DNA of 64,000 nt from Zanthoxylum bungeanum (Eukaryota > Streptophyta > Magnoliopsida > Sapindales > Rutaceae). The stretch spans positions 248,001-312,000 of the forward strand of contig SKCR01023733.1 in the NCBI GenBank assembly GCA_019454045.1, given 5' to 3'. The notes under the pieces were generated by a model. The model searched no databases and had not been told where the DNA came from. It worked only from the letters and a program-made list of their open reading frames with translations. Positions 819-53,337 of the stretch are shown in pieces (position 1 is the stretch's first letter; the number at the start of each line of letters is the position of its first letter). Made by a program: the position numbers and the translations under genes.

Positions 819-830
819 TGGTATCAGAGC
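819..830 (+). other. Primer binding site (initiator Met tRNA), C1
   Basis: TGGTATCAGAGC begins two bases after the LTR end. This is the standard plant copia primer site, complementary to the 3' end of initiator-Met tRNA. It fixes the 5' LTR boundary and the + orientation of the element. Confidence 0.93.
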
Positions 831-3148
831 GATTGAAAAACATGAAATTTGATTAGGGCTTAAAATTTGGGTAAATTGATTTTGAGCATGAATTTATGAA
901 ATTGGATGAATTAATATGCTTAAATGTGTTTTAATTGAGGATTGATTGGATCAATTTGAAGAAAAATTGTTTGGAACAAATTTGCCCAATATCTTAGGCT
1001 TGGCCGAATAGATGGATGCCCTAAATTGTCTTGGATTTTTGTTTTTTGATTCATTGGATGAGTTGGAAACAATTGGGAATGATGATTTAATGTTGAATTG
1101 AATTTAATTGGATTGAATTTGAATTTGACACAAAATTCCCCTTTAGCCGAGAGTTATAAAGCATGTATGGGTTTGATTTTTGATTAAATTGTGTTGGACA
1201 CTATTTGATGTTAAAGAGCATGATTAATTAGGCTAATTGATGTTTTAGAAATGTTAATTGGGTAATTAATTATGATATACACTTTGGTAATTAAATTGGG
1301 AATTTGGAATTTGTAATTTAATTATATTGGGCCTAATTTTGGAAATTGGACTTTGAAAGTTGTTATTGGGCTTATTGGGCTTGGTTGTACCAAGTTAGGT
1401 TTAGGCAAAATTGGTTGGATCCAATTGGGCCCAAAACCGCATCCATAAAGCCCAAATGTGACTAATGGACTTTTAAAATTTAATTGGGCCTAAATTGATT
1501 TCTAGGCTTATGGGGTAATTCCCGGACTGGACTTTGGTTATTCGGTTTGACCCGAGTTGACCAAAACTCCACGCCTTAAGAAATTAATTAAAATCCCATT
1601 GGACCTTAATTAAATTAATGTTGGACGTTAATCGGGCTTTGAGACCAGTAACGATTAAATTTGGAATTTAAATCGTAAAAGGTTTATTAATAAAGTGTAG
1701 TATTTAATTTGGAATTAAATAGTGAATTAGTATTAAATACAAATTGAATTGGATTTAATTTTGTAGTTTAATTTAATTCGAGAATTTGTACTTTGAGTAC
1801 TTATTCGAAAAATGAGTTTGACTCGAGCAAAATCAAATCGTTGTTTGAATATTGGATGATCACTAATTATCAGATTAATTAATTTGATTAGATTGATTGA
1901 TAACATGCTTGTGTGAATACATGGTTGCGATGCATGAATAATGTATATCGGATGGATATTAGATGTGTGAGGCAATTTTAGAAATTGTTGTAATAAATTT
2001 GGAATTTATTAATTGGACATGCGTGTCCAGCCTTATTACCTCCTTATTCTTTGTATTCTCTTCTCACCTATTCCCTTCAATGTAAATGAGGTTTCTTTAG
2101 AAGTGTAGTGTAACGGGTAGAAGTAAATACTTGTGCTAGCTGGAGAGAGGAAATGGAGAGATTTGATCTAGGATCAATGTGTAAAGTATCCATCCGCATA
2201 TCATTATTATTTTATTCATATGCGCTTTATTATGTGTTTAGAATGCATGCTTAAGGGTGTATGATGATGAGGCCTTAACAAAGATGATAAATTGGTTGCC
2301 AATTTGCACGCGAAAAACCCTCACAAATATTAAGCGTTTTTCCTTCCATTGAGTGATTCTTACTCAAGATCCGAGATTGGCATTGGTTTGTTGGCCAAAG
2401 TCAAGGCCTTTGTCCGTCGAGGATGTGTTTGAATCACAAAGGCTTTGTTCCATATCGGTGTCTTGTCCGAGTTGTGGTTTGTTGGCCAAAGTCAAGACCA
2501 CTTCTTATTCATTGACATTGATTACGAAGCTTTCCATGGTCAATGGGTCGCGCTTAACTGGGATCACTAAGTTTGTTGTGCCAAAGCCAAGGCTTAGTTG
2601 ATTCAGAGGAAAAAGGTTAGGTAATATATTGGATATATTGGCATAAATAAGATATATGTTTCGGACTTGGATGTCCCCCTACTGGATCTAGGAATTGGAT
2701 TGGATCCAATTGATCTTAGAGATATACCTAGTTAATTATCATACAATTTGTTGGCCAAAGTCAAGATTGTGTGATATTTAACGGGATCCTAGCCCGCTAG
2801 GAAACACGGTTTCCCGAGTACTCGACAGAGGGTTAGAGTCTCGCCGAAAAATAGTGGGAGGCAAGAATTGAATTTGCAATATTCGTTTAATTACTTGCCA
2901 TACGCGCTCAAATAAATATCATTTGTCAAATAAATTAAATGTTAGTTGGACTAATATTTAAACGTTATTTTAATTAACAGTTGTACTGTATTCAAACTAT
3001 TCATTTATATTTGATTATATAATTGGATTATAATAATCAATATATTTGATTTAATTAAAAGTATAGTTGATTAATATAGTTGGACTAAATAATCATTATA
3101 TTTAATAGTACCTAAATCGTTGATTAAATAGTTGGACTATTAGAATCA
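831..3148 (+). other. C1 5' leader (noncoding)
   Basis: AT-rich untranslated leader of about 2.3 kb between primer site and gag. No coding frame is supported. It holds many short inverted repeats with a TGG centre (for example 1701-1721, 1991-2011, 3013-3038, 3069-3094, 3122-3147) and three copies of a direct repeat with core TTGTTGGCCAAAGTCAAG (2387-2405, 2478-2496, 2747-2765). A conserved CCGAGTACTCG palindrome lies near 2814. Homologous leaders are at 16061-18370 and 55015-56715 (+) and 41496-43782 (-). Confidence 0.8.
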
Positions 3149-3800
3149 AGATAAAATTGAAAGATTGACATTTAAAACATAATCCTAGGGAAAATGTATT
3201 TAAATGGTTTAATTTTCAATTGGGAATAATTTCAGGATAGTCCTGGAAATCTAATAAGTTACTTTATTTGATAAAATAACATATTAGGCCTTAGCCCGGA
3301 GTTAAGCAAAAAGTAGAGCATAATCTTTGGAAGATTCATGTGATGATAACTTTAGTGCTTAATCCATTAAGCTTGTCGTAGTAGACTCCTTAATTTCTGA
3401 ATCAGAACTAAGGATTAGATCCTTAAAGTATGATAAAGAAATTGAAGGATCTTCATAGATCTATAATTAGATCTTAGAAGTAAATATTGCAATACTAAAC
3501 TCTTGGAGAGTTAATGACTATTCTCAATGAGATAAAGTCAAAGTTTGCAATTAGTCAAGTAGCGCAAGGCGCACCTTACTTTGATATTCTAGAAAGCCAA
3601 GGCTTGGCCAAAAGCTTCAGGAGTGTTGAAAAGGGCAAAGGCAAAATCATTATAATCTTCTCGGAAGATAAATGACAAATCCCAAAATGTCTGCCTAAAT
3701 TGTGGCAAACGGGATCGCGGAAGCGTGACTGCCGTTTGGACAAAGCAGACATGAAGGAATTGAAGACAGGCAAGGCTCTGACTTCAAATATGTTTCTCAT
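3149..3800 (+). pseudogene. C1 gag remnant
   Basis: Aligned by eye to the better gag of C3 (56716 on). The start codon equivalent at about 3150 is altered. A middle block of roughly 190 bp is missing near 3497. The zinc knuckle at about 3689-3733 keeps CLNCGKR, but the histidine and the last cysteine are lost to base changes and a frameshift. The intact family protein is a capsid/nucleocapsid that packages element RNA; this copy cannot be functional. Confidence 0.75.
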
Positions 3801-6800: not shown

Positions 6801-8870
6801 TGTTGGAGAATTATGACCCATAGCGTCACTATTTGTACAGATCATGGTGTTGTTGTACAAATTAACTATGTGACAAATGAGATTGCACTCTTATCATTTG
6901 TGATTAGATCACCAAGATATATAAATGATAGGAGGTTCTTATGATTTGTTCCTGGATTGAGAATGATATGAGACAGTATCAGTCCACGAAGGATAAATCT
7001 TTAAATATCCCTAGTCAGAGTATTATCGAGATTGGACATCGATAAATGCGTAAAAGACTAGTATTACACTTATTCGCGTTGTGAGGGCACAAACGATATA
7101 GTTCTCATATATTTGGGTATAGGATACTCATGCAAGTGTAATAGGAGGTTGTGTTTTACCGATGGTACGGGAAACAGCTTCGCTCTGGATAGACCCCCTC
7201 GGAATTCCATTGGGAGTATGACTATGTGTCTATGGAAGTCCGAAATCAAGGTAGGTGTATTTGGTCTTAACCTGAGACTTGCACCGCTAATACTTGCGAC
7301 AATCAATATACATTGGTTGTGGTCGTACAGGGCTTTAACAGGTTTCATGTACGCCTCTGCTGGGTATATTGAGAATCGTAATATGTTGGGTGTGATGTAG
7401 ACGGAAGTATCACTCCAGTCATATTGAGATGATGATCGCGTAGGGATACATAACTGGTTCTCTAAAAGGTTGCAACTGTCGGGATAAAATGACTTGGTCA
7501 TGATTATCCGATAATAAAGAGACTAGTTGCTCGTAATCCGATATATGCTTCGTACGGGGCAGAGAAACTGTACCAGCCCCAGGCCTTGCATGTGATCATC
7601 TGATACTGGATCGAAATACGCAATACTACGTATACTACGCCTGATATAGATCCTTATATTCCTGTAAGGATATTTCTAGAGAATTGGGTAGGCATGGCGC
7701 TTTGCTAGAAGCCAACCTTGTCTTGTAAATCGGTACAAGCGTAGTACTAGGTACTTACGTGTTCGGATAGTCCGATGACCGAATTTACTGCCAACATATC
7801 CGGGGATCTCATGGGTCGCTTCCCGAAGATTCACCGATGACGTATGACTCGCAATTTAATTAATCTGGGATTAATTAGATGAGAGAGAAAATTAATTTGG
7901 GATTAATTGCGGAGATATTTTATCTAGGATAAAATATCATTTAAAGAGAGAAAACGATTAATTTGGAATTAATCGATAAAATAATATATTCGATATATTA
8001 TACGAAATTGGATTTCGACGCGGAATTAAAATTAGATTTTAATTCAGGCGAACGAGTTAATTTAGAATTAATTCGTTAGCGACGTGAATAGTAATTATGC
8101 TAGCCATGATTATTTAATTAAATTAGATTTAATTACGACGCAACGGAAAATTCGTTAATCTGGAATTAGCGAACCCGAGCCCGAGATTATTTACGAGTGC
8201 ATTCGCATTTCAAATTCGAGTGCGGTACGTAAGTCAAATCTACCGTCAAATCACTAGTCGCATCTAGCGTCACATCATTCGTCAATCAAGTAATAGATGT
8301 CTTTCACTTTGAGTGATTGACGCCAGTCACTATTCACTGATGGATGGGAAGTGATGTGTGTAGTTGATGGAAAGCATTTATGGCTTGTTTTTTGGTAAAA
8401 GTATTAATTGATTTTTTGAAAATCAAGTGTGTATTAGATACACAAATCCTTACCAACCAAAAAACTCATCTCTCCTCTCTTTTCTCTCTTCTCAAACACG
8501 CCCAAGGGGCTGTGTTCTTTACTGGTTTTCTGCCTAAATGCCGAAAGCCCTAGGGAAGCAAAGTGTTTGATTTTTGTGGCAAAAATCAAGAGAGCTAGCA
8601 CTCCGAGAGACATGCGAAGGTGATAGGGAAGTCCACCCATGAGCTTGGAATCATTTGACGAAGCTTGGAGCTTGTTCAAGGAGCAATAATGGCCGAATTT
8701 GGAGGAGCCACAGCAGCTCACTGCCGAGCAGTCCATGGATGCAGAAAATATTTTTTGTTGCCTCGCGCGTCGCTCAACCGATCGATGTGAGTATTCTGTA
8801 ACTCCCTTGTATGTATTCACATGTATTTCTTGCTTTATATTCGATCCTCGGGACTTAGAGATCTCCAACA
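6801..8870 (+). repeat. 3' LTR of C1, full length (2,070 bp)
   Basis: Starts TGTTGGAGAATTATGACCC after the polypurine tract and ends TCTCCAACA, so it has TG...CA termini. It keeps the hairpin array that the 5' LTR has lost. It is followed by GTATG (8871-8875). I could not identify a clear TATA box. Confidence 0.93.
7853..8170 (+). repeat. Array of short inverted repeats with TGG/TAG centres in C1 LTR
   Basis: About ten head-to-tail inverted repeats, each a 6-12 bp arm, a three-base centre and the complementary arm. Examples: 7914-7938 arms GATATTTTATC/GATAAAATATC around TAG; 7955-7975 CGATTAATT/AATTAATCG around TGG; 7981-8001 around TCG; 8003-8017 CGAAAT/ATTTCG around TGG; 8023-8045 GAATTAAAAT/ATTTTAATTC around TAG; 8051-8077 around TAG with one mismatch; 8115-8135 TAATTAAAT/ATTTAATTA around TAG. 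Equivalent arrays are in every full-length copia LTR here (15092-15410, 34463-34837, 36495-36805, 44395-44715, 61490-61862). Function unknown. Confidence 0.88.
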
Positions 8871-33426: not shown

Positions 33427-35322
33427 TGTTGGACAATTATGACCCATAGCATCACTATTTCTAAAAGACATGGTGTTTTTGTACAAATTAAATATGTGAC
33501 AAAGGAAAAGCTCTTTTATCATTTTGTAATTGGATTACTTGGATATATAAATGATAAAAGTCCATATGATTAGTACCAGATTAATAAGATATGAGACAAT
33601 ATTAATCCACGAACAGTTTAATCATTAAATATCCTTAGTCGTAGTATTATCGAGACTGGATATCGATAATGTGGAATAGACTAGTATTACACTTGTGCGC
33701 GTTATGGAAGCTTAACGGCATAGTTCTCATATATTTAAGTATTTGATACTTATGCAAGTGGGATAAGAGGTTCTGTTAGCCGTTGGACCGGGAACAGCTT
33801 CGCTCTGGATAGACCCTCGGAGTCTCATTGGTATTATGACTATGTGTCTATGGGAATCCGAATCAAGGTAGGTATATGTGGTCTTAACCTGAGACTTGCA
33901 TCGCTAATACTTGCGACAATCAGTATAATTTGGTTTTGGTCATCCGGAGCTTTAACAGGTTCTTTGTACGCCTCTTCTGGGTATACTGAGAATCGTAGTG
34001 TATTGGGTGTGATGTCAAGATGGAAGTATCACTTCAGTCATATGGAGAGGATGATCACACATGATACAAAACTAGTACTCTTAAATGCTGCAACTATCGG
34101 GATAGTATGACTAGGTCACAATTATCCGATTACAAAGACTAGTTGTTGATGATCCGATATATTCTTTGTACGGGGCAGACACAATTCCAGCCCTAGGCCT
34201 AGCATGTGACATCCGATACTGGATCGTATTACGCAATACTTAGTATACTACGTCTGATACAGATTATATATTCCTCGTTGAATATTTCTGGAGAATTGGG
34301 TAGACACGGTGCTTTGCTAGAAGCCAACCATGTCTTGTAAATCGGTAAGAATGTGGTACGGGGTACGCACGTGTTCGGATAGTCCGATGATCGTATTTAC
34401 TGCCAACATATCAAGGGATCTCTTGGGTCGCTTCCCAAAGATTCACCGATGATATTTGACTCGAACAGAATTAATTTGGGATTAATTATGAGAGAGAAAA
34501 TTAATCTAGGATTAATTGCGGCAATAATTTATCTGGGATTAAATTCGCATAGAAGAGAGAACACGATTAATTTGGAATTAATCGGTAAAATAGATTTAAT
34601 AGTTAAATTGGATTTTTCTATTTAATTTATTTATTTGGGCTAAAATAATATATTGGATATATTAAATTGAAATTGGATTTCAATACTGAATTAGAATTGG
34701 ATTTTAATTCAAGCGAACGAATTAATTTGAAATTAATTCGTGAGCGACTATCGTAATAATTTTGTGAGGCATTATTATTTAATTAAATTGGATTTAATTA
34801 TGTCGCAACGGAAAATTCGTTTAATCGGATTAAACGAACCCGAGCCCAAAGTGTGTTGTGTAAGCCAACTTGAATTTTGAATTTAAAGAGGTGGGACCCG
34901 CAACTTACATCAAGTGTTTGACATGTGATGGAAGTAGTTGGCAATAGTAATTAATTCATTTAATTCTCTCAACCACCAACTTTGGTAACACAACTTGCTT
35001 TTTGGAAAAGATATACAAAACTTTTGGAAAGTGAAACAAAACATTTTTTCTCTTCTCCCTCCTCCAATTGCCGTGACTTCCTCTCTTCCATTTGGAAATT
35101 TTGTTGCAAAATTTCAAGCAAGCTAGCACTTGGGAGTTGAACTAAGGTGATAGGGAAACTCACCCTTGAGTTTGGAATTCGATTTTAATGCTTGGAGCTT
35201 CCACATACAAAGAAAGTTTTTGAAATCTCTCATCCGATCAAAGTGAGTATTTCCGCAACTCCACTTCTTATTCACGCTAGAATCTTGTTTAGGATCATTG
35301 GGATGTCTTAGAGACACTAACA
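33427..35322 (+). repeat. 5' LTR of C3 (1,896 bp)
   Basis: TGTTGGACAATTATGACCC to GAGACACTAACA. The inverted-repeat array is at about 34463-34837, with arms such as CGATTAATT/AATTAATCG around TGG near 34564. Confidence 0.92.
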
Positions 35323-35323
35323 A

Positions 35324-35336
35324 TGGTATCATAAGC
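35324..35336 (+). other. Primer binding site, C3 (mutated)
   Basis: TGGTATCATAAGCC; the first eight bases match the initiator-Met site TGGTATCAGAGCC, then it diverges. Confidence 0.85.
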
Positions 35337-35888
35337 CACCTAAACTTGATTTTAATTTCTAAGGTTTATATACTTGAATTGGGAATTTTGCTTGGAGCAT
35401 GTCTAAATTTAAATTGATTGTTGGGTTATGCTTGGATGATGGTAACTTAGAGTTATACATTGAAGGATTTGTGAAAAATTGATTGGATCTAATTTTCCCC
35501 TAAACCCAAGCATGGCCGAATACTAGTCCTAGAACACTCATGGTGATTTTTTGAAAATTTAACAATTGGATATGTTATTGGCATGAAATGAATATTGATT
35601 GTTGATTTAATTGGATTGAATTGTTGATTTAATTGGATTGAAATCAAAATTGGATATTATTTTTGCATATTGCCGTGAGTTATAGCATGTTGGAATGAGT
35701 TGATTTTGCCTCAATTTTGTGTTGGACATGAATTTGAGAATTAAGCATGATTAATTAGATTAATTGATGTTTTGGAAATATTAGATTAATTAATTAATTA
35801 ATTGTGGTAATTGCACTTTAATTAGATTAATATGTAATTTGGAATAATATATTAATTTAATTTGTTGTATTTGGGCTAATGGGCTTGG
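35337..35888 (+). other. C3 leader, first part
   Basis: AT-rich leader homologous to the C1 and C2 leaders. It ends in CTTGG (35884-35888), the left target duplication of C4. It resumes at 55020. No ORF is supported. Confidence 0.85.
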
Positions 35889-37848
35889 TGTTGGATTTCT
35901 AGGTTATCCCAAGATCAAATTAAGCTATGAAAACATGTGAATACATCAAAGTAAAGTTGCGGAATACTCACTTTGATCGGCTTTTGCGATGCGATGAAAC
36001 AAAAAAATTCTGCTCCAAGCTTTCTTCTTTGTTGGTTTCGGTCATGCTCCATTGTGTGCTCCAAGCTCCAAGCTTTGTAAATGGATTCCATGCTCATAGA
36101 TGGGTTTCCCTATCACCTTTGTAAGACCCCTTTGAGTGCTAGCTCTTGAGATTTTGCAACAAAATCATGAAGAAAATGAAGCCTAGCTTCACGCCCAAAA
36201 GAGAAAAAAAATGCACCATTGCCGTGAGTTTGAGGAAGAGAGGAGAGAGGAAGTGTTGTGTTGGATGTGTAATCTAAAAATTACTAAAATGAAAAGTCAT
36301 ATACCAAATGTATTAAAAAATTATATATGTCTTTCAACCATCACACTTGTGTGTTTAACACACTATCACCAACCACCAACTTCCATCACATTAAAGTGAT
36401 AAAGTTGACTAGTGATGTGACGCGTGATGTGACTTGTTGGCCTCACTTGATTCTAAATGTGAGTGGTCCCGCAAACACTCCCGGGCTTGGGTTCGCTAAT
36501 TCCGAATTAACGAATTTTTCGTTGCGACGTAATTAAATCAAATTTAATTAAATATTATGCCTAGCAAAATTACTATTCACGTCGTTAGCGAATTAATTCT
36601 AAATTAACTCGTTTGCCCGAATTAAAATCTAATTTTAATTCCGCGTCGAAATCCAATTTCGTATAATATATCGAATATATTATTTTATCGATTAATTCCA
36701 AATTAATCGTTCTCTCTCTTTCAATAGTATTTTATCCCAGATAAAATATCTCCGTAATTAATCCCAGATTAATTTTCTCTCTCTTTAATTAATCACAGAT
36801 TAATAATGTGCGAGTCATACGTCATTGGTGAATCTTCGGGAAGCGACCCATGAGATCCCCGGATATGTTGGCAGTAAATTCGGTCGTCGGACTATCCAAA
36901 CACGTACGTACCTAGTACTACATTTTTACCGATTTACAAGACATGGTTGGCTTCTAGCAAAGTACCGTGCCTACCCAATTCTCCAGAAATATTCTTAAAG
37001 GAATTAAGATCTATATCAGGCGTAGTATACGTAGTATTGCGTATTACGATCCAGTATCGGATGTCACGTGCTAGGCCTGGGGCTGGAATTGTGTTGCCCC
37101 GTACGAAGCACATATCGGATCACTGGTAACTAGTCTCTATAATCGGATAAACATGACCTAGTCATATTATCCCGATAGCTGTAGCATATAAGAGCACCAG
37201 TTCTGTATCCTACGTGACCATCATCTCCATATGACTGAAATGATACTTCCATCTTGACATCACACCCAATACACTACGATTCTCAATATACCCAGAAGAG
37301 GCGTACACAGAACTTGTTAAAGCCCTGGACGACCAAAACCAAAATATATTGGTTGTCGCAAGTATTAGCGGTGCAAGTCTCAGGTTAAGACCAAATACAC
37401 CTACCCTGATTCGGACTTCGATAGACACATAGTCATACTACCAATGGAATTCCGAGGGGTCTATCCAGAGTGAAGTTGTTTCTGTACCATCGGTAAACAC
37501 AACCTCCTATTACACTTGCATAATTATCCAATACTTAAATATATGATAACTATGCCGTTATACTCCCACAACGCGCACAAGTGCAATACTAGTCTATTTC
37601 GCATTATCGATGTCCAATCTCAATAATACTCCGACTAGGGATGTTTTAATGATTAAACCTACATTGATTGATATTGTCTCATATCTTATCAATCCGGAAC
37701 TAATCATATGGACTTTTATCATTTATATATATCCCGATAATCTAATTACAAATGATAAATAAGCAATTTCCTTTGTCACATAGTTAATTTGTACAACAAC
37801 ACAATGTTCTGTACAAATAGTGATGCTATGGGTCATAATTGTCCAACA
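35889..37848 (-). repeat. 3' LTR of C4 (1,960 bp)
   Basis: + strand TGTTGGATTTCTAGG to GTCATAATTGTCCAACA. The inverted-repeat array is at about 36495-36805, for example ATTTTATC/GATAAAAT around CCA near 36730. Confidence 0.93.
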
Positions 37849-37862
37849 ATCTCCCACTTGGC
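37849..37862 (-). other. Polypurine tract, C4
   Basis: ATCTCCCACTTGG on the + strand, i.e. CCAAGTGGGAGAT in the element sense, abutting the 3' LTR. Confidence 0.8.
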
Positions 37863-39461
37863 CTATAGCCAATCACTCAAGTGTCCTACACTTGAACTAT
37901 GTACGGTTCGCTCAAACTTCTGCTGAGAAACTGCTTTCGTCAGCGGATTTGCAATGTTATCATCTGATGCGATTTATTCGATCATCACACATCACCACAT
38001 GTATGATCCGAACGAATCAGATGAATTTGAAGTATATTCTTGGATCGTTGATGAGACCATTAATTTTTTAGCCTGTGTTGTAGCCTAGCTCAGCTGCTAA
38101 CAGAACTACTCCTAATACAATTAGGATTATTTAGATCCAAAGTGCTTCTATTGCTGCCTCAGCTGCAACAATATTCCACTTTGTTGTTTATTCGGCAACA
38201 GTATCTTGCTTGGAAGATCTCCAGCTCACTGTTCCGTTATTCAAACTATATAGTACTCTTATTGCGACTTATAGTCGTTTTTGTCGGTTAGGAAACTTGC
38301 AACAGTGATCTCAGTCACTTCAAGTTTTCCTTCTCCATAGTTTAAGAAAGCATCCTTAGTTCTTCTAAGATACGTAAAGATGTTCTTAACATCAATCCAG
38401 TGACTATCACTTGGATTGGCCTGATTGTGACTCCATATGCTCAAAGCATATGAGACACCAGGTCACATACATATTTTTCAATGTACGGGTTCTCGGAGAG
38501 TGCCAACAACTTTTAAATCTATCCCAGTAGATCCTTATTCCTAGAATAAATGTTGTCTCTCCCAAGTATTCTACGAAGAATTTTCATGAAAGCCAAGCTT
38601 TCACACGATTGTATTATGGGAATATCATTTCCAAGAAATGATATATCTCATTATTTAGGACAGTCACTGTCAGTGCGCTCCCACTAACCTCCTTATATAC
38701 GCAAGAATCATTTCGTTTTGATTAAATCATATACCATTATGATTACATCAAAACTACAGTTCCAAGAACGCAATGCTTGCTTCAATCCATCAATGGATTG
38801 AATTAACTTGCAAACCTTGTTTGCTTGTTTCGGTACGACAAAACCGTCAGGATGTTGTAACCATCTTCCAAACAAAAGGTTTTCGTTTAAGGAAAGCGAT
38901 TTTGACGTTCAGCTGCCATATTTCATTAATGAAACATGCAACATCAGCAAGCATTATCCAAATGGATTTAACCATGGCAACGGTTAAAAGGTTTCGTCGT
39001 AATCGACACAATGTTGATAATGATAAATTTTTCGCTACAAGCCTAGCTTTGTACGTTGTATGTGGACATCCATGTATGTCTTCCTTGAAGACACATATAG
39101 TACCAATAGGCACAATACCTTCCGGTACATCAACTAGTGTCCAAACTTAGTTGGTATACATGGAATCCATTTCGGACATCATGACACTTTTCCATAATAG
39201 GGAGTCGATACCTTGTATCACTTCCTCATAAGTAGTCGGTTCGTGTTCCTCAATAAGATTGACATCTTTACGAGGTGAGATCAGAAACCCATACCTCCCA
39301 GGTTGTTTTCTGACTCTCTCTGACTTATGCGGTTCTCGTGTATTCGAAGATTGTGGTACAGTTTCATCCCTCATGAACTGTTTGTGTTCCATTAAGGAAT
39401 CGATGCCTGGAACAGTATTACTTCGATTTTCATCGAGTTTTACTTTCCTCCCACTTACCAC
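37863..39461 (-). pseudogene. C4 RT and RNase H remnant
   Basis: 39147-39461 encodes the integrase-RT linker and RT start (RKQPGRYGFLISPRKDV, then TTYEEVIQGIDSLLW). RT continues at 38847-39113 (TYKARLVAK, then ADVACFINEIWQLNVKIAFL) with frameshifts. RNase H-side sequence at 38259-38444 reads QANPSDSHWIDVKNI and YLRRTKDAFLNYGEGKLEV. It ends near 37870, next to the polypurine tract. Confidence 0.85.
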
Positions 39462-40740
39462 TGCATATAGGTATTCCTCTTAGGAAAACAGCATGGCGAG
39501 CAACAATTACATTGTTATCTTATGAGTTGTATAAGTACTATACTTTGGTTACCCTAGGATAACCTACAAATTAGGCACTTATCCGATTTGGGTTTTAGTT
39601 TGGCATCATCCAAACATATGCCTAGCATACCCAAATCTTCAGGAATGAGAAAACCCGGTTTCTTTCCTGTTCATATCTAATATGAAATCTGTCAAACATA
39701 TTTTTATGGAACCTTATTCAAAATAAGTGTTGCACTATTAAATGTGTATCCCTTGAAGGAAAATGGTAGCTTAGAGCGACTCATGATTAACCTTATCATG
39801 TCGAACAAAATTTGGTTTCTCCGTTCGGACACACCGTCAAATTGAGGTGTTCCGTGAAGAGTCTACTGTGAAAGAATACTATACTCTTTCAAGTAATTGA
39901 TAAACTTATTGCTTAATTATTTTCCACCACGGTCTAACCGTGACGGTTTAATATTTTAGCCGATCTGTTTGTCTACTTCGTGTCGAAACTCTTTGAATTT
40001 ATCAAAAGTTTCTGATTCGTGTTTCAAAAGAAACACATAACCATAACGCGATGCCACATCCGTAAAGGTTACGAAGTATTCATATCTACCTCTAGCCTAG
40101 CTAGATATGGGCCCACTTACGTCACTATGAATGAGGGCTTACAGATCGATGGCACTTACACTTTTACCGAGTAAAAGGTGTTTTAGGCACTTTGACTAAT
40201 AAACTAGATTCATAGACATTATTTGAATAGAATCAAATCTGTCCTAGTATCCACTCTTCAAAAGTGTGGATATACGAGTTGTTTAATGTGTCACAGACAA
40301 CAATGCAACAAATAAGTCTCATCTGATCAAATCAGTTTGAGCTATTTGTTTGTCATGTTATACGTTTGAGATTCATTTATATTCTAATATAAATACTGTT
40401 ATTCACATATAATGTGCTTATCTCAATATCATCTTTTTATAAAATGAAACACTTTAGTGTTCTAGAATATAAAGGTATACCCGCAACGAGTTATACTCTA
40501 ATATAGAGAAAATGTTTCTAGTCAAACTAGGTACATTTTAACAGTTTCCTAATTTAAGTACACACCTGAAGGGTAGTTCCTAACTTAGGTTCTACGGTTA
40601 AAACAGCGACTCTCGTCCCGTTTCCAATTCGCAGATCAATCTCAACTGAAGTCAGTATCCTGCTAATCAGCAGATTCCGCACATCAGTACATATCTTATG
40701 TACCACATATATTATCAAAATCCAATTTTGAAACTAATAG
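39462..40740 (-). pseudogene. C4 protease and integrase remnant
   Basis: Reading right to left: protease-like sequence at about 40440-40740, the integrase zinc region at about 40150-40400, then the core through about 39660. The core aligns with C2 19815-20120 and C3 58190-58640 but is broken by stops and indels. 39462-39660 is the variable linker toward RT. Confidence 0.78.
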
Positions 40741-41495
40741 CGAACATATTTATGACAAACATTACTTGAAGCCGGAGCCTTGCCCCTCTTCACTTCATTC
40801 ATGTCTGCCTTGTCCATATGGCAGTCACGCTTCCAGTGACCCCGTTTGCCATAGTTTAGGCAGACATCTTGGGATATGTCATTTGTCTTCCTTGAAGACA
40901 TTGATGATTTTGCCTTTGCCCCTTTTAGAAGCTCTGGCTCTGCCTCCTAGAGAATAGCCATCAACTCTCCAAGAGTTTACTCTTAGTTCACAATGAACCT
41001 GCCCCAGCTTTCGGGTAGAGACTATAAGATCAAATCTTTGGCAGTCTCAGCCACGTAGGTTTTTCCCAGCTAACCTTGCTGATCGATGTCAGCAATCATC
41101 TATGACACCTAGTGCTCGACAGATGTACCCTCTGACATACGTGAGCGAAAGAGCTTCTTTTGCAATTTGTACTTCTAATATCTAAGACTAGATCTATGAA
41201 GATCTTTAATTTCATCATCATGGTACAAGGATCTAATCCTTAATTTTGACGACGGAATTAAAGTGTCATTGTGGTAAGCATAAATGATTGAGCACTAAAG
41301 TTATCATCACATGAATCTTCCAAAGATCATGTTCTACTATTTGCTCAATTCCGGGCTTAGGCCCGAGATTTTTATCTATCAAATAAAGTAACTCCTCAAT
41401 TCCCAAGACTATCCTGAGGTTTTATTCCTAATTTGAAAATTAAAGCCGTTTAAAGATATTTTTACCCAGGTCATGTTTTAAACGCTAATCTTTCA
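40741..41495 (-). pseudogene. C4 gag remnant
   Basis: The start region at about 41495 aligns with the C3 gag start. The zinc knuckle at 40821-40862 reads CLNYGKRGHWKRDC, so the second cysteine has become tyrosine. It has the same in-frame deletion of about 90 bp before the knuckle as C2 (near 40925). Stops interrupt the rest. Confidence 0.82.
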
Positions 41496-43782
41496 TTATC
41501 TTGATTGCTATAGTCCAACTATCCAATCAACGATTTCAGGTACTATTGAATATAATGATTACTATAGTCTAACTATATAATCAACTATAATTTAATTTTT
41601 AAATTCAAATATATTGATTACTATAATCCCATTATATAATCAACTATAATTGAAGTAGTTTGAATACAGTCCAACTGTTAATTTAAAACAACGATTAAAT
41701 ATTAGTCCAACTCTATATATTTATAAGTAATGACGAAAAATTGAAATGAGCGCGTATTTGCAAGTATCTAACGAAATTGTAAATTTAATACTTGCCTCCT
41801 ACTATTTTTCGGCGAGCCTCTAACCCTCTGTTGAGTACTCGGGAAACCTTGTTTCCTAGTGGGCTAGGATCCCGTTAAATAACACACAACCTTGACTTTG
41901 GCCAACAAGCTGTATGATATTTAACTAGGTAGATCTCTAAGATCAATTGGATCTCATCCAATTCCTAGATCCAGTAGGTGGACATCCAAGTCCGAAACAT
42001 ATATCTAATATATGCCAATATATCCAATATATTGCCTAACTTTTTTCCTTTGAATCAATTAAGCATTGGCTTTGGCAAAACAAACTTAATGATTCCAGTT
42101 AAGCAGGACCCATTGACCTTGGAAAGCTTCGTAATCGATGTCGATGGACAAGAAGTGATCTTGACTTTGGCCAACAAATCATAACTTGGACAAGACATGC
42201 GATATGGAACAAAGCCTTCATGATTCAAACACATCCGCGATGGACAAAGGTCGTGACTTTGGCCAACAAACCAGTGCCAATCTTGGATCTTGAGAATGAA
42301 TCATTCAATGGAATGAAAAACGCTTAATATTTGTTGAGGGTTTTTCACGTAATTGGCAACCAATTAATTATCTTGATTAAGGTCTCATCATACACCCTTA
42401 AACATGCATTCTAAAAGCATAATAAGGCGCGATAAATAAATTTAATAATGATATGCGGATGGATATTTAAACATTTTGTTCCTAGAACAAATCTCTCCAT
42501 TTCTTCTCTCCCGCTAGCACAAATCTTACTTCTACCCAATTACATAACACTTCTAAAGAAACCTCATTTACATTGAGGGGAATATGTGAGAAGAGAAATA
42601 CAAAGAATCAAGAGGTAATAGGCTGGACACGCAGGTCCAATTTAATAAATTCTAAATTTATTACAACAATTTCCAAAATTGCCCTCACCCATCTAATATC
42701 CATCTGATATACATTATTCATACATCACATCCATGTATTCACACAAAGCATGTTATCAATCAATCTAATCCAATTAATTAATCTGAAATTAATGACCATC
42801 CAATGTTCAAACAACGATTTGATTTGCGCGAGTCAAACTCGTTTTAATATAAGTACTCAAAGTACGAATTCTTGAATTATATTAAACTACAATATTAAAT
42901 TCAATTTAATTTGTATTCAATATTAATTCTTTATTTAATTCTAAATTAAATAACTACACTTTATTAACGAGCCTTTACGACTTAGATTCTAAATCTAATC
43001 TAAACGGGTCTCAAAGCCCAATTAACATCCAATGTCAATTTAATTAAAGTCCAATGGGCTTTCAATTAATTTATAAGGCATGGACTTTGGCAACCAAAGC
43101 CCAATAAGGAATCACCATTTTGCCAAAAATCAATTTAGGCCCATTAGGCCCAATTAAAATTTTAAAGGCCCATTTAATTATATTTAGACTTTATGGAAAT
43201 GGTTTTAAGCCCAATTGGATCCAACCAATTAACCTAAACCATACTTGGCCCAAACCAAGCCCATTAAGCCCAATTCCAAATTGAGCCCAACTAATTAAAT
43301 TTCAATATTCCCAATATCACAATTTAATTAATTCAAGTGTATTAGCCATAATTAATTAGTCAAATTAACATTTCCAAAATATCAATTTACATAATTAATC
43401 ATGCTTTCTAAATATCAATTCATGTCTAACACAATTGAAGCAAAATCAATCCCATTTCCATGCTTATTGCTCACGGCAATTTGGGGTTTTTATGTCCGAT
43501 TCCGATTTCAATCCAATTGAATCTCAAATCAAGGTTTCCCAAGTCTTTCAACTCATCCAATGATCAAAAAACAAAATTACCATGACTTTAGGGCACTTCA
43601 ACACATTCGTCCAAGCATACTAGTTGGGGAAAAATTGATCCAATTCAATTTTCATCAAATTGATCATGCATAACTCTAAGTTATCATCATTCAAGCATAT
43701 TCAAACAATCAATTTCATCAAATCATGCTCAAATCAATTTTACCCAAATTTTACCCTAAATCAAATTTCATGCTTAATCAAG
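41496..43782 (-). other. C4 5' leader (noncoding)
   Basis: Minus-strand copy of the copia leader. The direct repeat CTTGACTTTGGCCAACAA (reverse sense) appears near 41893, 42161 and 42249. Inverted repeats with a CCA/CTA centre (TGG/TAG in the element sense) lie at about 41510-41700 and beyond. A short open stretch at 43660-43848 spans leader and LTR and is not supported as a gene. Confidence 0.8.
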
Positions 43783-43796
43783 GCTCTTGATACTAT
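43783..43796 (-). other. Primer binding site, C4 (mutated)
   Basis: In the element sense TAGTATCAAGAGCC, against the consensus TGGTATCAGAGCC, directly inside the 5' LTR edge. Confidence 0.8.
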
Positions 43797-44812
43797 TGTT
43801 GGGTTTCTAGGTTATCCCAAGATCAAATTAAGCTATGAAAACATGTGAATACATCAAAGTAAAGTTGTGGAATACTCATTTTGATCGGCTTTTGTGATGC
43901 AATGAAACACAAAAATTCTGCTCCAAGCTTTCTTCTTTGTTGGTGTCGGTCATGCTCCATTTGTGTGCTCCAAGCTCCAAGCTTTGTAAATGGATTCCAT
44001 GCTCATAGATGGGTTTCCCTATCACCTTTGTAAGACCCCTTTGAGTGCTAGCTCTTGAGATTTTGCAACAAAATCATGAAGAAAATGAAGCCTAGCTTCA
44101 CTCCCAAGAGAGAAAAAAAATTGCACAATTGCCGTGAGTTTGAGGAAGAGGGAGAGAAGAAGTGTTGTGTTGGTTGTGTAATCTAAAAATTACTAAAATG
44201 AAAAGTCATATACCAAATGTATTAAAAAATTATATATGTCTTTCAACCATCACAATTGTGTGTTTAACACACTATCACCAACCACCAACTTCCATCACAT
44301 TAAAGTGATAAAGTTGACTAGTGATGTGACGCGTGATGTGACTTGTGGGCCCCACTTGATTCTAAATGGAAATGGTCTCGCAAACAGTCCCGGGCTCGGG
44401 TTCGCTAATTTCGAATTAACGAATTTTCCGTTGCGACGTAATTAAATCAAATTTAATTAAATAATTTTGCCTAGCAAAATTACTATTCACGTCGCTAGCG
44501 AATTAATTCTAATTAACTCGTTGCCCGAATTAAAATCTAATTTTAATTTCGCGTCGAAATTCAATTTCGTATAATATATCGAATATATTATTTTATCGAT
44601 TAATTTCAAATTAATCGTTCTCTCTCTTTCAATAGTATTTTATCCCAGATAAAATATCTTCGTAATTAATCCCAGATTAATTTTCTCTCTCTATTAATTA
44701 ATCCCATATTAATAATGTGCGAGTCATACGTCATTGGTGAATCTTCAGGAACCGACCCATGAGATCCCCGGATATGTTGGCAGTAAATTCGGTCATCGGA
44801 CTATCTGAACAC
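43797..44812 (-). repeat. 5' LTR of C4, part 1
   Basis: Starts TGTTGGGTTTCTAGG. Stops at AACAC (44808-44812), the left target duplication of element B. It contains the inverted-repeat array at 44395-44715. It continues at 54068. Confidence 0.93.
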
Positions 44813-46194
44813 TGACCGGCGTAAACACACACGTATAACGCAAGCGCACGTATCGTTCAAGTAGTATAAAAATATCGATCCCACGAGGACTTAATTCCTA
44901 CTGTTGTTATTAATTGTTGAATCTATTAATTTACAAATATCTAATTAAATGGAGAAGAGAGAGATTGTTTGTTTGTTTGGTTGAATGTGGCTTTGCTAAA
45001 TAAATAGATAAATAAAAAGACAAAAGAAAATACTAAGGAAAATAACAAAAGATACATAGATCTAGGGTTGTGATTTATTCCAATACCATTATAAAGATGA
45101 AGTGATTATTTATAGTTAGGAAATACAATGATTTATTAACCTGGAACACGAAATTATGCGAAAGCATCTGTCGATGGTCAGACACAAATATCCAGTATAA
45201 CCCAATTGAACCATATTCCTATGTCAACCACATTATCTGGATTCATTAAGATTAAGTTCCAATTATGGCTACCCTCGCCCGACAGGTATATTCCTATCCT
45301 GTAAGGAAATCTATTAAAGGGTTATCTATCCTCAAGGAAGATCGTGGGCTATTGAGTCTAAGGTTTTAAACTTAAAATCCCTATGTCTAGTTCATTTTAA
45401 GTTTACCTAATCAATTTTATTAATGGCCAATTAATAAAAAGCATTAAGATTAAGATTCAATAAATAAATCTTTATATTACCCAAACTATAATCTAACCCT
45501 TATAAACTGGTGATATTGAAATTCATCACAACCCCAGATAACTATTTAGTTACAACACATAGCTAGGACTAATAACTGAAAATAAAGACATAAAGTAAAA
45601 ATACTGAAAAGTAAAAGACATAAAGTAAAACTGAAAAGTAAAATAAATGCTAAGGTAAAAGGAATTACTTTTACTACTACTACTAATTTAGATATCTCCC
45701 ATAAAATAATATATAAACTTGTTATAATATTACCAACCGACCAATCTGGCGGTATCCTGATTAAGTCAAATTAAGTCCAACCAGCCATATAGGCGGTACC
45801 ATAATTAAATTACCAACCGACCAATATAGCGGTATCCTTTTTAAGTCAGGTTTAAACCAGATTAAAATAAATTGCCAACGACCAATATAGCGGTATCATT
45901 TATTAATCAGTATTTTAATTAGTAAATATATTATTTTTAAGGGAGATTAATCTAAATAGTAACAGTAAAAGAATTACCTTTCACCCTAGCTGGGAAATTA
46001 CTTTCTCATGAATAGTAAAAACTGTAAAAAGTAAAAAGTAAAAATTAAATTACTATTATTACAAATGGTAATTAAAATTAATTACAAACCAAAAAATAAA
46101 AAATTAAAATTAAAATATTTTTAGAGAGAGGAACTCTCTCTTCATCAAAGAGATGAGAGAGAGAAAGGCACACTGAAATCTGAAATTTCGCGCT

Positions 46195-46203
46195 CTATTT
46201 ATA
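46195..46203 (-). promoter_or_regulatory. TATA box of element B 3' LTR
   Basis: TATAAATAG in the element sense, a consensus plant TATA box, just downstream of the ACGT cluster. The identical box in the 5' LTR at 53309-53317 is the one that would drive the element RNA. Confidence 0.75.
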
Positions 46204-46223
46204 GGAAAATTTTTCACTGTTCG

Positions 46224-46763
46224 GGCGTCGCGACGCCAAGGACCTCAGCGTCGCGACGCTGGATTTGTCGACGTGGCACAATGAGAAGGCGACACGTAGC
46301 AAGGCGGCTAACTATTCACGCGACACGTGTCAAGGCGGCTAATTCTCAATTATTGTGATGACGTCATTGATGACGTCATGCTGACGTGGCGCTGACGTGG
46401 CAATGACGTGGCGATGACATGGCGCTGGCGTGTGTTGCAATTGTCGGCACAATAGGATTTCGACACGTGTCACGCTGTGATTGGCTGATGCTGACGTGGC
46501 ATGACACATGGCAAATTTGACTCGTTGACCGCTGACATGGCTGATGACGAGGCGACGTGTCAAGTCAGAGTGTCGGCAGCATATGATGTTGACACGTGGC
46601 ACGGCGCACGTTAGCAGATTCGTGTGTGATGGTGACACGTGTCACGGCGCACGTTAGCAAAGTCAAACTTCTCAAATTCCGATCTGTTGACCTGGTGCAC
46701 GTTAGCAGATTCGGCGCATGCTGGGAGTCGCGACGCGCAAGGCTTCAGCGTCGCGACGCTGAA
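46224..46763 (-). promoter_or_regulatory. ACGT (bZIP-type) motif cluster with GCGTCGCGACGC palindromes, 3' LTR of B
   Basis: I count 16 ACGT cores in 46271-46702, against fewer than two expected by chance. They include four CACGTG G-boxes (near 46324, 46464, 46593, 46636) and two TGACGTCA palindromes (near 46359, 46371). The cluster is bordered by the palindromes GGCGTCGCGACGCC (46224-46237), CAGCGTCGCGACGCTG (46246-46261) and a 20-bp one at 46744-46763. In plants such motifs bind bZIP factors (ABA, stress, light); that role is inference here. Confidence 0.7.
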
Positions 46764-46946
46764 ATGACGATTTTGCCCTTTTTGTCCAGTTTTTCCTGTT
46801 TTGCTCCAAATCACCTCCAGATTGTCCTGAAACTTTATTTATCTACAAAATACACAAAACACATCAAAACATTCACAAAACTCAAGAAACTATACAAAAT
46901 ATTAAGTTTAATGAGTGGGAAATAGTGATATAAATATCACTCATCA

Positions 46947-46963
46947 CACACCCCAAACCTAAC
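46947..46963 (-). other. Polypurine tract, element B
   Basis: CACACCCCAAACCTAAC on the + strand, purine-rich AGGTTTGGGGTGTG in the element sense, abutting the 3' LTR. Confidence 0.85.
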
Positions 46964-48345
46964 ATTTTGCTAGTCCTCGAGCAAAATACAAAATAAAATA
47001 ACATAACAAATTTAACTAAGCCATTTTCGTAGGGATCACGGTTGCATTTAGCATATGCAACAAGCCTTTAAACCCCTAGGTGTCCCTAGTGGACGAGTTG
47101 TAGTCTCGTGAGGGTTTACAGCAATGATACCCACAAACATTTTATAAAAGTAAAAATGTAGTGAAACTAATGCACACAAAAGCAAAAAGACAAGAGAAAA
47201 GAGAATAAAGAAGTTAGTGACTAATCAGGTGAAACTTCTACTCCAAGTTACTAGTTGTTTTGTTTCTTTCTAAATTACCGAATAAGTAAATTCTCCGATT
47301 ATTTTTATCATTCTCCATATACACAGCCAACAAAATATTAATCAACTCATTTTTGCCCACAACAGTCATAAGTGCAGTTGATAAGAGAGTAATATTTTTG
47401 TCCTAAAGTTCTATCAGATTTCGCACCTTTTTGGAACAATGGAATAATTTTTCTCATTTTCTGATTTTTTCTTTGATTTTTCACTTTTCTATTTTTTATT
47501 TATATGCAATATCTTCCATCTATGTAGCGAGTGTTGGGTCGGTGGCTCCCAAACCAGTTGGCTTTAGGGCACCAGGTGTTAAGACACCCCAACGGACTTA
47601 ATTACTCAGACTTCAGATATATATATATATATTTTTGCAGCATCTTCGATCCATGTAGCGAGCTTTGGGCCAATGACTCCCAAACCAGTTGGTTTTAGGG
47701 CACTAGGTGTTAAAACACCCTTACAGACTTAATAACTCGGATCTCAGACGTTTTTTTTTTTTTTTTTTTTTTTACTCCATTGCTTTTTAGAGATGTTTCC
47801 TCCAATTAAACTAGAGCACTGAATATTACAAACTTTTCAATTTTAACTCATGTCCGTATGTTTCCATGTAAGTTCATAATACATGTCAACTGAACATATG
47901 AAGATCCATTTTTAGTCAGATTTATGGAGAATTCACAAATTAAATAATTAAAATGAAATAACAAAAATTAACTTGTTTCAAAAATAGGTCGGAGATACGT
48001 CTCAGGAGTGGAAACTCCTTACTCAGCTATCTTTTACCAATTTCACATTTTTAGTCAAAATAAAAACATAAAAATGCAAAATATTTTTGTAATTTTTGAA
48101 AAATTTTCAATTTTTTTTGTATTTTTCGAAAAATTTTGGACTAAAAATAAAAACAACAAACAAACTAAAAACAAGGTACTAATCAATTAAAGAACTCCTA
48201 TTGATTTTAACGGAATTTTGTTGCATAAATGAAAAATTTTAACGGAAAGTATTAACACAAAAGTTATGCACCCCCAAACCTAAATTAAGCATTGTCCCTA
48301 ATGCGTTCAAAACATAAACAAAATGTAGGAACAATGGTACCGAGT
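46964..48345 (-). other. Element B 3' noncoding region
   Basis: No ORF is supported. Includes a pair of diverged direct repeats, 47507-47618 and 47638-47750, with TGTAGCGAG, CCCAAACCAGTTGG and CTCAGAC, and a 24-T run at 47751-47774. Homology to element A covers 47313-48135 and ends where A enters integrase coding sequence. A second CACCCCCAAACCTAAAT tract near 48269 resembles the polypurine tract. Confidence 0.8.
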
Positions 48346-49376
48346 TTATGCGTCAGTCTCGTCCTCGTCGCTATCTGAAAGTGGATATGGTGGCATCTGA
48401 TTCTCCTGCATTCCCATATGTCGTGCCATTCCTTGCTGCAGTTGAACCAAATATCTCAGCTTCGTTTCCACTCTGGCGACTCTCTCAGGCAAGGTACGAG
48501 ACTGTGCTGCTCTGCGTGACTGTGAGGGTGGCTGCTGTGGAGCAGCTGCAGGTGCTGAGGAAGATGGTCCGGCAGGTATCTGCCTCTCTGCTCGGAGCTG
48601 CTGTATCAGTCGGGGAGTCAGAGCTGTCATAGGCTGCATAAGTTCTTCTTGCGGGTCAACTGGAACCATACCCAAAGTGCATAAGGAAGTGATCAGGTAA
48701 GGGTAATAAAGTCCAGCTTGCGATTGGGTAGCAGCCCAAGCAATATGTGTAGAAATCAGAACTCCCACATCAATCGATAATCCCTTCATCAAACAGTACA
48801 ATAAAGTCATCCTCTCTCGGGTGACAAAAGTAATATGGTTCCTGGTATGAGAGATCTCGTAATGAAATGAAACCAAACTCTCGCATCTGGTTTAAGAAAT
48901 CTAGAACTCATCTTCATGTACTCCCCACTGCTGCTCATCTCCCATGTAGCATTGGGGATACACAACTCATCAGTCAGTTGCGAGATCTCAATCTCATTCC
49001 TCGACTCTGTATACTCATCTACCTCCATCTCAGGGATCCCATAGAACTTGTTGATTGTCACCGAATCAAAAGCAACATGTTTCCCTCTCACCATAGTATG
49101 AAAAACGACATGCTGAGCAGCATTCGCATAAAACTCTCTGACAAGTGAAATGCTCGCAGGTCTGGCTTGCATACAAAGCTTCTCCCAGCGCCGGTCGGTG
49201 ATCACTCTATCAATATCCGGAAACATCCCAGAGGGAATCTCAAATCCTCTCTCAATGATCCCGACCTTCTTTGTCAATCCTCTCTCATAGCGCTGTTCTG
49301 CAGCTGCTGAGACAAATTTTGTAGTGTCAAAACTGGGTTCAGCAGATGTTGAAGCTCTGGATCTCTTTGGTGGCAT
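48346..49376 (-). CDS. Putative plant transposon protein ORF (single frameshift)
   Basis: Start ATG at 49374-49376 (MPPKRSRASTSAEPSF). The N-terminal part, 48807-49376, has the features of the plant family named 'putative plant transposon protein' (Transposase_32 type): ERGFEIPSGMFPDIDRVI, VREFYANAAQHV, VRGKHVAFDSVTINKFYGIP and PDARVWFHFITRSLIP. Near 48830 the frame shifts by one base and the family pattern goes on in 48346-48876 (TFVTRERMTLLYCLMKGL, then SIDVG). The C-terminal third is Pro/Gln/Ser-rich, with a short predicted coiled part (RVARVETKLRYLVQLQQGM) and an acidic end SDSDEDETDA. Despite the name no transposase activity is established. It occupies the env-like position of Athila elements. 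Confidence 0.72.
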
Positions 49377-50286: not shown

Positions 50287-50288
50287 TA

Positions 50289-50313
<25 letters not shown>
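50268..50313 (-). repeat. GCGTCGCGACGC palindrome next to a 25-base poly-A/T run
   Basis: TCAGCGTCGCGACGCTGA (50268-50285) is an 18-bp perfect palindrome identical in its core to those bordering the LTR ACGT cluster. It is followed on the + strand by 25 T (50289-50313), i.e. poly-A in the element sense. Confidence 0.85.
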
Positions 50314-50319
<6 letters not shown>

Positions 50320-50728
50320 ACCATGTCTTGTGACGGATAAATCCATAGGGACGCGTCTCAAAAGATGTCTCCTTACTTGGCCGTCGCCTGGATCAACTTT
50401 GTATCTTCGTGATTTTGTCAAATTTTATTATGAAAATCCCGCTTGTATTGGCCTGCTTTGTTAAAAAATTCCGTTTTTATTTTTCCTGCAAAACTAACAC
50501 ACAAAATTAAAAAGTTCACACAAAAATATGAAAAATAAATTACAACAAATTGCATGGGTTGCCTCCCTGCTAGCGCTAAATTTTTCGTCTTCAGCCAGAC
50601 GTGACTGAAATTTATCTGTTAAGGAGGTTTCAGTGTCGTTTTGGATGTCCTATCAAAGACAATCCCGTGAGCGTTGCTTTTGAAGGGTCTCTTCCAACGG
50701 TAAAGTGGTAAAAAGAATTTTGTCTTAT
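50314..50728 (-). other. Element B spacer with GGGAGGCAACCC stem-loop
   Basis: Noncoding. In the element sense GCTAGCAGGGAGGCAACCCA (about 50553-50572) is a short stem-loop that I recall as a conserved Athila-type motif after pol. Here it directly follows the gag-like ORF, as expected if protease to integrase had been deleted. Confidence 0.5.
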
Positions 50729-51790: not shown

Positions 51791-51902
51791 TTTTAAATCA
51801 CCTGAAAATACAATAAAGAAATAAAAATTACAAAATAAAAGAAAGAAAATTAGATATAAGTAAATTAGATAGTTTCAAAATTAACAACTCAAGAAAAATA
51901 AG

Positions 51903-53317: not shown

Positions 53318-53337
53318 GGAAAATTTTTCACTGTTCG

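Follow-up and report, generated by a model that had tools for sequence, protein, structure and literature searches.

Short hairpins with a strand-specific U-N-G loop along copia retrotransposons of Zanthoxylum bungeanum: a possible dispersed packaging code

The stretch of Zanthoxylum bungeanum DNA considered here, hereafter the window, is 64,000 nucleotides (nt) long (contig SKCR01023733.1, positions 248,001 to 312,000), and self-comparison together with the ends of the long terminal repeats (LTRs) places in it four related copia elements, A to D (Table 1). The elements match the Pfam families of copia gag, gag_pre-integrs, rve (integrase) and, in fragments, RVT_2; these matches fix the sense strand, and they agree with the original prediction, made from the sequence alone, that a tandem array of inverted repeats at 7853..8170 lies in a copia LTR. 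A primer binding site, TGGTATCAGAGC, follows the 5' LTR at 819 and 16048, and we take it to be of the tRNA-Met type.

Regarding the array, direct reading and an inverted-repeat scan found inside 7853-8170 eight perfect inverted repeats with arms of at least 6 nt and a spacer of exactly 3 nt, centred, as predicted, on TGG, TAG or TCG; with G-U pairs and one mismatch permitted, copy A has 11 hairpins. The other spacers (0-2 and 4-11) gave 0 or 1 repeat each, which is chance level. The G+C content of 26% would speak for chance, but dinucleotide-preserving shuffles of the stretch held a mean of 0.28 repeats with a 3-nt spacer (maximum 3), and none of 1000 reached eight, in line with the claim that AT-richness does not suffice. 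Array hairpins are present in all six LTR copies that keep the segment, another point on which the prediction held, and their number and perfection vary by copy (aligned stretches: A 7790-8230, B 15028-15470, C 36440-36872 and 44349-44781, both on the minus strand, and D 34405-34900 and 61430-61924). Within the array of A, the stems are mostly unlike one another. One of them reads GATATTTTATC-TAG-GATAAAATATC in A and GAATTTTATC-TAG-GACAAAATTC in B, which has one pair less, as had been noticed, with one A.C mismatch remaining. The minimum free energy (MFE) of the sense strand of 7853-8170 is -79.5, against -51.4 ± 4.4 in 100 shuffles (z -6.4). The array occupies LTR positions about 1050-1370, and it would lie within the transcribed 5' end if TATATAAA is a TATA box, as its conservation suggests: this motif is kept about 118 nt into the LTR in four of the five LTRs examined, and it is altered to TATGTAAA in D2.

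The array is the densest part of a larger, element-wide set of hairpins; the original observation is right and understated, and its extent was too narrow, because hairpins continue through the leader and the coding region. Over the whole window, 72 repeats with arms of at least 8 nt are centred on 3 nt, of which a few belong to an AT microsatellite (63.3 kb); each other spacer from 0 to 11 accounts for 1-17. In a comparison by region, with the microsatellite (63301-63359) set aside, 3-nt spacers lead in the array-keeping LTRs and in the internal parts of A-D; the stretches at 9.0-13.9, 23.4-33.4, 44.8-54.1 and 62.3-64.0 kb hold 0, 2, 3 and 0 repeats centred on 3 nt, none of them on TNG. The 3' LTR of B is without about 590 base pairs (bp) that include the array (at 22907, versus 14939-15529), while the two B LTRs are otherwise about 97% identical; it has only three repeats centred on 3 nt with arms of at least 7. 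Perfect TNG-centred hairpins (arm at least 6) number 148 in A-D, whereas 100 shuffles of the elements averaged 1.07 and never exceeded 4. Chance in AT-rich DNA is ruled out by the shuffles of array and elements, and its probability is negligible for practical purposes; the other stretches of the window are at or near chance level. By alignment column, the hairpins form 59 loci, of which 22 are in the leader piece (which extends into gag), 21 in the coding piece and 16 in the LTR, so that a feature restricted to the LTR, as first described, is ruled out.

As for strand and loop, 148 of the 2997 TNG triplets of the sense strand of A-D centre a perfect hairpin (arm at least 6), against one of the 1973 CNA triplets that represent the antisense. 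Among the 16 classes of first and third loop bases, TNG reaches 4.95%, ANG 0.66% and the rest 0.39% or less; the closing pairs of the 148 hairpins are T-A (97), C-G (34), G-C (12) and A-T (5). These hairpins have 62 distinct 6-nt arms (TTAATT occurs 12 times and ATATAT 10 times), which are AT-rich with a pyrimidine beside the loop and carry at most 0.58 bit of information per position; therefore, neither the stem nor a binding site has a clear consensus. What is conserved is the 3-nt U-N-G loop with a mostly pyrimidine-purine closing pair, and the stem is free except for pairing and AT-richness. The palindromes might instead be cis-regulatory sites in double-stranded DNA, like the LTR repeats of Sireviruses, for whose palindrome arrays a regulatory role has been proposed (PMC2829016). 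Their mid-LTR clustering in the window family and in two relatives discussed below (L004 and L007) would suit such sites, but the strand-specific loop (148 versus 1), the variety of arms and the hairpins in the coding region do not, and we judge this explanation improbable.

That the hairpins can form in RNA is suggested by folding: 100 of the 138 tested occur in the MFE structure of their own 123-nt surroundings (138 of the 148 were used, two segments of C and D being omitted). Precursors of small RNAs, with miRNA-like stems and host silencing as the target, are a very improbable origin; the longest perfect arm among the TNG hairpins of the window is 11, too short for plant Dicer; miRNA-like stems have about 20 bp or more. 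The identity of the loop would also go unexplained, although small RNAs are drawn to the palindrome-rich LTR regions of maize Sireviruses (Bousios 2016, as cited in PMC10760457).

Comparison of the elements revealed that the stems change while pairing is kept. For the counts of covariation, loci, divergence and pair states, the LTR rows were A2, B1, C3 and D1 (D2, C5 and B2, near-copies or partial, were omitted), and loci were chosen for at least one copy with a perfect stem and a TNG loop, a choice that favours low divergence and high pairing and cannot create double changes. Between elements, 68 of 85 double changes restored a Watson-Crick pair; when the partners were permuted 1000 times, the average was 13.5 and the highest count 27. 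The cells behind this figure overlap and are not independent events, so they were recounted once per pair: in the leader, 11 of 156 pairs changed on both sides versus 4.9 after shuffling (0 of 500 shuffles), and in the LTR, 7 of 134 versus 2.4 (0 of 500). Sliding the partners by 1-3 columns gave 0-4 doubly changed pairs and 29-54% of paired cells versus 93-94% for the true partners, a contrast that is partly built in because the helices derive from the same sequences. Distinct pair states comprise 45 G-U and 22 A-C; with the relative L001 added (14 G-U and 6 A-C, counted from both sides), they become 59 and 28 (p 0.001 against equality and 0.040 against the background transition ratio). Thus, of the three readings that the original prediction had offered, an RNA fold fits best, given the strand counts, the G-U states and the covariation, ahead of cruciform or regulatory DNA and of template switching.

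In pairwise comparison, the three inner pairs diverge by 0.067, the outer stem by 0.137-0.151 and the flanks by 0.183; in the loop, the divergence is 0.175 at the first base, 0.363 at the middle one and 0.129 at the third, hence the third base is constrained and the middle base is free. The middle base changes at about twice the rate of the flanking DNA (0.544 in the LTR), mostly by A/G exchange; methylation context is a partial cause at most, given that, for the contexts that occur most often, the rate still exceeds the background of the same context.

A further possibility is that reverse transcription, by fold-back or template switching, perfects imperfect repeats, so that the hairpins would be a mutational by-product. 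Quasi-palindrome correction is a known process, and some compensating changes are adjacent, as in one L001 hairpin in which the AGAG loop is kept and three neighbouring stem pairs are changed. This process does not predict a fixed U..G loop of exactly 3 nt on a single strand, G-U states exceed A-C, and single-sided changes are common between elements, so that change is often stepwise; it may supply some of the hairpin variation, and as the whole explanation it has a small probability. A DNA process acting after insertion was also considered: LTR pairs within one element gave no double change and only one-sided ones, 7 among 310 comparisons of stem pairs (counted from both sides, with gaps in a further 53), too few to decide.

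The feature recurs in other copia families, which have loops of their own (GAG, AGAG, GGAG), mostly ending in (G/T)NG. A protein search led to copia reverse transcriptases (RTs), of which the named ones were mostly from plants (best 120 of 1032). Bacterial and archaeal genome contigs scanned with a copia RT alignment yielded six copia loci (L001-L006), and a plasmid collection (PLSDB) two more (L007 and L008); a second plasmid search returned the same two records only, and no copies were found in viral contigs searched by protein or LTR pattern, or in phages. These loci are probably plant DNA contaminating bacterial records, because they carry copia reading frames and, in four of the eight, the primer-site motif of the window. 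L007 (NZ_CP115302.1) and L008 (NZ_CP115454.1) share 99.4% identity, consist of copia sequence and are recorded as plasmids of Streptomyces camelliae and Kitasatospora cathayae.

In the loop scans, which used one segment each for C and D of the window, the sense loops of L001 end in G in 27 of 32 cases for 3 nt and 25 of 30 for 4 nt (shuffled means 0.66 and 0.86), with AGAG 9 times; those of L004 do so in 27 of 29 3-nt loops (shuffled 0.60), with GAG 14 times; and those of L007 in 15 of 18 and 8 of 11 (shuffled 0.1 and 0.4; 20 shuffles), with GGAG 5 times. L003 has four of five 4-nt loops ending in G (shuffled 0.10), a small number. There is no G-ending excess in L002 (2 of 5 3-nt loops, 0 of 6 4-nt loops), L005 (0 of 2, 1 of 3) or L006 (0 of 4, 1 of 3), and this absence weighs less for L005 (3.2 kb) and L006 (3.6 kb) because they are short and mostly coding. 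Antisense-type loops number 0-2 per loop length in the relatives, at or near the shuffled mean. At position -3 of the G-ending loops of 3-4 nt, G or T occurs in 45 of 52 cases in L001, 28 of 31 in L004 and 20 of 23 in L007, with a background of about 0.54; L008, 99% the same as L007, was omitted from this count, made on the same C and D segments. Hairpin density in L001, L004 and L007 is 2.4-2.7 per kb in the long open reading frame (ORF) and 4.5-7.1 per kb outside it; in the ORFs of L002 and L006 it is 0-0.3 per kb. Between the two LTR/leader copies of L001, 27 double changes keep pairing, versus a permuted mean of 10.3 and a maximum of 19 (1000 permutations). A hairpin atcatt-GGG-aatgat occurs at L001 6999 and L004 4282, apparently the same place of the pol ORF, where the two families are about 70% identical.

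We consider a selected code of RNA hairpins the likeliest account, and the best mechanism that we can infer for it is reading by Gag. A conserved loop on stems free to vary in all but pairing, on one strand of an element that replicates through RNA, suggests that the loop is recognised, in RNA, by a protein. In the proposed scheme, the element's own Gag, through its single CCHC zinc knuckle, would bind the unpaired G presented by each hairpin, and many weak sites on one RNA would allow Gag to select and condense its own genomic RNA; the dispersed packaging signals proposed in RNA viruses serve as the model, and the family-specific loop motifs might reflect co-evolution of Gag and loop. For the window family, we consider it close to an even call that the short hairpins along the sense (genomic) transcript of this plant Ty1/copia element offer their loop G to its own Gag knuckle as a dispersed packaging code. 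The wider proposition is held more tentatively, as a real possibility that falls somewhat short of even: several plant Ty1/copia families would have a genome-wide packaging code, consisting of tens of hairpins in LTR, leader and coding region, with a family-specific (N)(G/U)NG loop read by their own Gag knuckle, compensating mutations even inside gag-pol, and repeated gain and loss between families.

The nucleocapsid protein (NC) of HIV prefers KXG, a form for which a literature search gave nothing. One CCHC knuckle is present above the Pfam cut-off in the Gag of each of the relatives L002, L004 and L006. HIV-1 NC has high affinity for unpaired guanines (TG, UG, TGG, GXG) in loops or single strands (PMC4100767); in all solved NC complexes, a guanine occupies the second knuckle, and the first takes guanine, thymine or cytosine (PMC7601788). 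Unpaired G is bound by the zinc fingers of NC, and when unpaired guanosines were mutated at several Gag sites, the effects on HIV-1 packaging were synergistic (PMC9142903). Finally, many stem-loops that share a motif for the coat protein make up the dispersed packaging-signal model (PMC6281560).

Several observations weigh against reading by Gag, or against the strength of the evidence for a selected code. The coding regions of the window copies are broken; the CCHC knuckle of element D is only under the Pfam cut-off; the scanned pieces of L001 and L007, downstream of gag, have no knuckle; and L002 and L006 combine a CCHC Gag with no G-ending excess, so the knuckle is not sufficient. In HIV-1, mutants of the GGAG apical loop abolished NC binding with no significant effect on packaging (PMC7601788), and yeast Ty1 Gag has low RNA-binding specificity (PMC8396678). 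The antisense fold of the array (z -5.9) is about as strong as the sense one, hence the strand claim rests on the loop and not on overall stability. Covariation is a modest excess in the coding piece (7 of 149 pairs versus 3.8; 12 of 500 shuffles), and the claim that the arms change with pairing kept, which stands for the whole element (68 of 85, and the recount per pair), did not hold for the flagged array alone, where 3 of 98 pairs changed on both sides across the six copies versus 2.3 (179 of 500, not significant); these copies are too conserved for the array alone to decide. The excess of G-U over A-C in the window family is modest as well: p is 0.007 if equal numbers are expected, and 0.086 if the background transition ratio is. 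Among the double changes of L001, 14 disrupt pairing and three lead to G-U, and the middle piece of this locus, with an alignment of only 52% identity, is poor evidence. In a tree of RTs (19 of the 120 listed proteins, from 1032 found, and 7 of the 8 loci), loci with and without the feature are interleaved.

The hairpins may also be real and selected in RNA for another role, such as binding a host RNA-binding protein, keeping the RNA compact or stable, regulating translation or splicing, or joining two genomic RNAs as a dimer. The strand, loop and covariation evidence would be equally expected, the folding of 100 of 138 hairpins fits, and a trinucleotide loop has been implicated in HTLV-1 dimerisation (PMC9142903); but a fixed loop on free stems points to a protein reader, and family-specific loops are easier with a reader encoded by the element. 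We regard such a role as unlikely, although it deserves serious consideration.

With respect to known systems, the original prediction had put it too strongly in knowing of no described equivalent: the LTR palindromes of Sireviruses are the nearest described sequence feature that we found, and they too form clustered arrays of short palindromes in the LTRs of plant copia elements (PMC2829016). Several of them have an odd centre and, if folded, would show a 3-nt loop like the window hairpins (OPIE-2 CACCGGACTGTCCGGTG; CACCGGACNNNGTCCGGTG in PMC10760457). Sireviruses as a lineage are marked by multiple PPTs and an integrase signal; the window elements are placed as copia. They differ in that 12 of 13 Sirevirus palindromes share a CGG-CCG core (Bousios et al. 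2010, PMC2829016), whereas the window arms are AT-rich and no listed hairpin has this core; in that copies within one Sirevirus element are mostly more than 85% identical (66.5-100%) and form CpG islands, whereas the 148 hairpins of four related elements have 62 distinct 6-nt arms and share only the loop; and in that they are found in the LTR and near env, whereas 22 leader and 21 coding loci accompany the 16 LTR loci of the window.

The dispersed packaging signals of MS2, HBV and others (PMC6281560) likewise consist of many stem-loops with a common short motif in variable surroundings, and their structure is conserved across relatives, as it is across A-D and L001 (the array alone gives 3 against 2.3); unlike these signals, described for viral coat proteins, the present hairpins belong to an LTR retrotransposon and are known from sequence. 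Like the stem-loops of retroviral Psi, the hairpins have, by sequence and predicted fold, an unpaired G in the apical loop, and GGAG, found in HIV-1 Psi, occurs five times in L007; copia Gag has a CCHC knuckle in the relatives L002, L004 and L006 (above cut-off), and element D has a candidate one below it. In retroviruses, the packaging signals that have been described lie in the 5' leader (PMC9142903, PMC4100767, PMC7601788), unlike the 59 loci spread over the element. Ty1 and Ty3 also have a Gag that must choose its own retrotransposon RNA, and the signals described, a 5' packaging region, a pseudoknot and dimerisation palindromes, differ from a repeated loop code (PMC8396678, PMC11381356). 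For BARE, packaging and dimerisation signals are mentioned in passages of PMC3735527 that contain no comparable array. Open-access literature searches returned no recognised description of loop-specific hairpins spread over a retrotransposon, and a scan of the window with Rfam 15 at gathering score gave 0 matches.

An LTR of element C hosts a nested LTR element (44813-54067) with 2.1-kb LTRs that are 99.1% identical; it is free of the hairpins and carries, at 48349-49379, minus-strand ORF pieces of PF20167 (plant transposon protein). A degraded gypsy-type element (rve, RNase H, RVT_1, Retrotrans_gag) occupies 24461-29244 on the minus strand, likewise without the hairpins, and the coding region of element A contains two copies of a 202-bp unit (3793-4203).

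Table 1. Positions of the flagged array, its hairpins and the copia elements within the window
Feature	Position	Strand	Basis
3' LTR of element A, TGTTGG...CCAACA, holding the flagged array	6801..8870	+	self-comparison, LTR ends
Flagged array, consecutive UNG-triloop hairpins in the LTR of element A	7854..8173	+	reading, repeat scan, alignment, folding
Hairpin, loop TGG, arm 9	7857..7877	+	repeat scan
Hairpin, loop TGG, closing pair T.G (G-U); C-G closing in B, C, D	7890..7908	+	scan and alignment
Hairpin, loop TAG, arm 11	7914..7938	+	repeat scan
Hairpin, loop TGG, arm 9	7955..7975	+	repeat scan
Hairpin, loop TCG, arm 9	7981..8001	+	repeat scan
Hairpin, loop TGG, arm 6; the outer pair is C-G (A, C) or T-A (D)	8003..8017	+	alignment
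Hairpin, loop TAG, arm 10	8023..8045	+	repeat scan
Hairpin, loop TAG, arm 15, including a G-U pair and a mismatch	8048..8080	+	scan and alignment
Imperfect hairpin at CTAG; C counterpart 44462-44482(-) perfect, loop TAG	8092..8110	+	scan and alignment
Hairpin, arm 9, loop TAG; the loop is TTG (B, C) or TGG (D) in the other elements	8115..8135	+	scan and alignment
Imperfect hairpin, loop TGG, with a mismatch and a G-U pair	8151..8173	+	alignment
Element A, primer binding site at 819 (TGGTATCAGAGC) and the long leader, in which TNG hairpins are dispersed; 3' end reaches gag start	819..3400	+	
Element B; array in 5' LTR about 15089-15409; hairpins across leader and coding region; 3' LTR without array segment	14050..23429	+	
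Element C; 5' LTR split by nested element 44813-54067; arrays about 36490-36810 and 44399-44719	35889..55014	-	
Element D, split by element C (break between 35888 and 55015); arrays at about 34466-34847 and 61491-61871	33427..62314	+	
Element D, Gag remnant with probable CCHC zinc knuckle, putative loop reader	57394..57735	+	zf-CCHC_5 E 0.0015, zf-CCHC_3 E 0.0038, both under Pfam cut-off
Element D, copia reverse transcriptase RVT_2, two fragments	58912..59771	+	Pfam E 1.7e-17 and 1.7e-19

In conclusion, how the Gag of a plant retrotransposon discriminates its own RNA from that of the host is, to our knowledge, poorly understood. If the loops are Gag sites, a packaging code could be read straight from the genome sequence, and the idea of dispersed packaging signals, put forward for viruses, would apply to LTR retrotransposons too, an unexpected property for mobile elements of this class. 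Some of the "palindromes" in copia LTRs might be accounted for as well, and there would be a sequence signature for which elements, non-autonomous ones included, each Gag can package.

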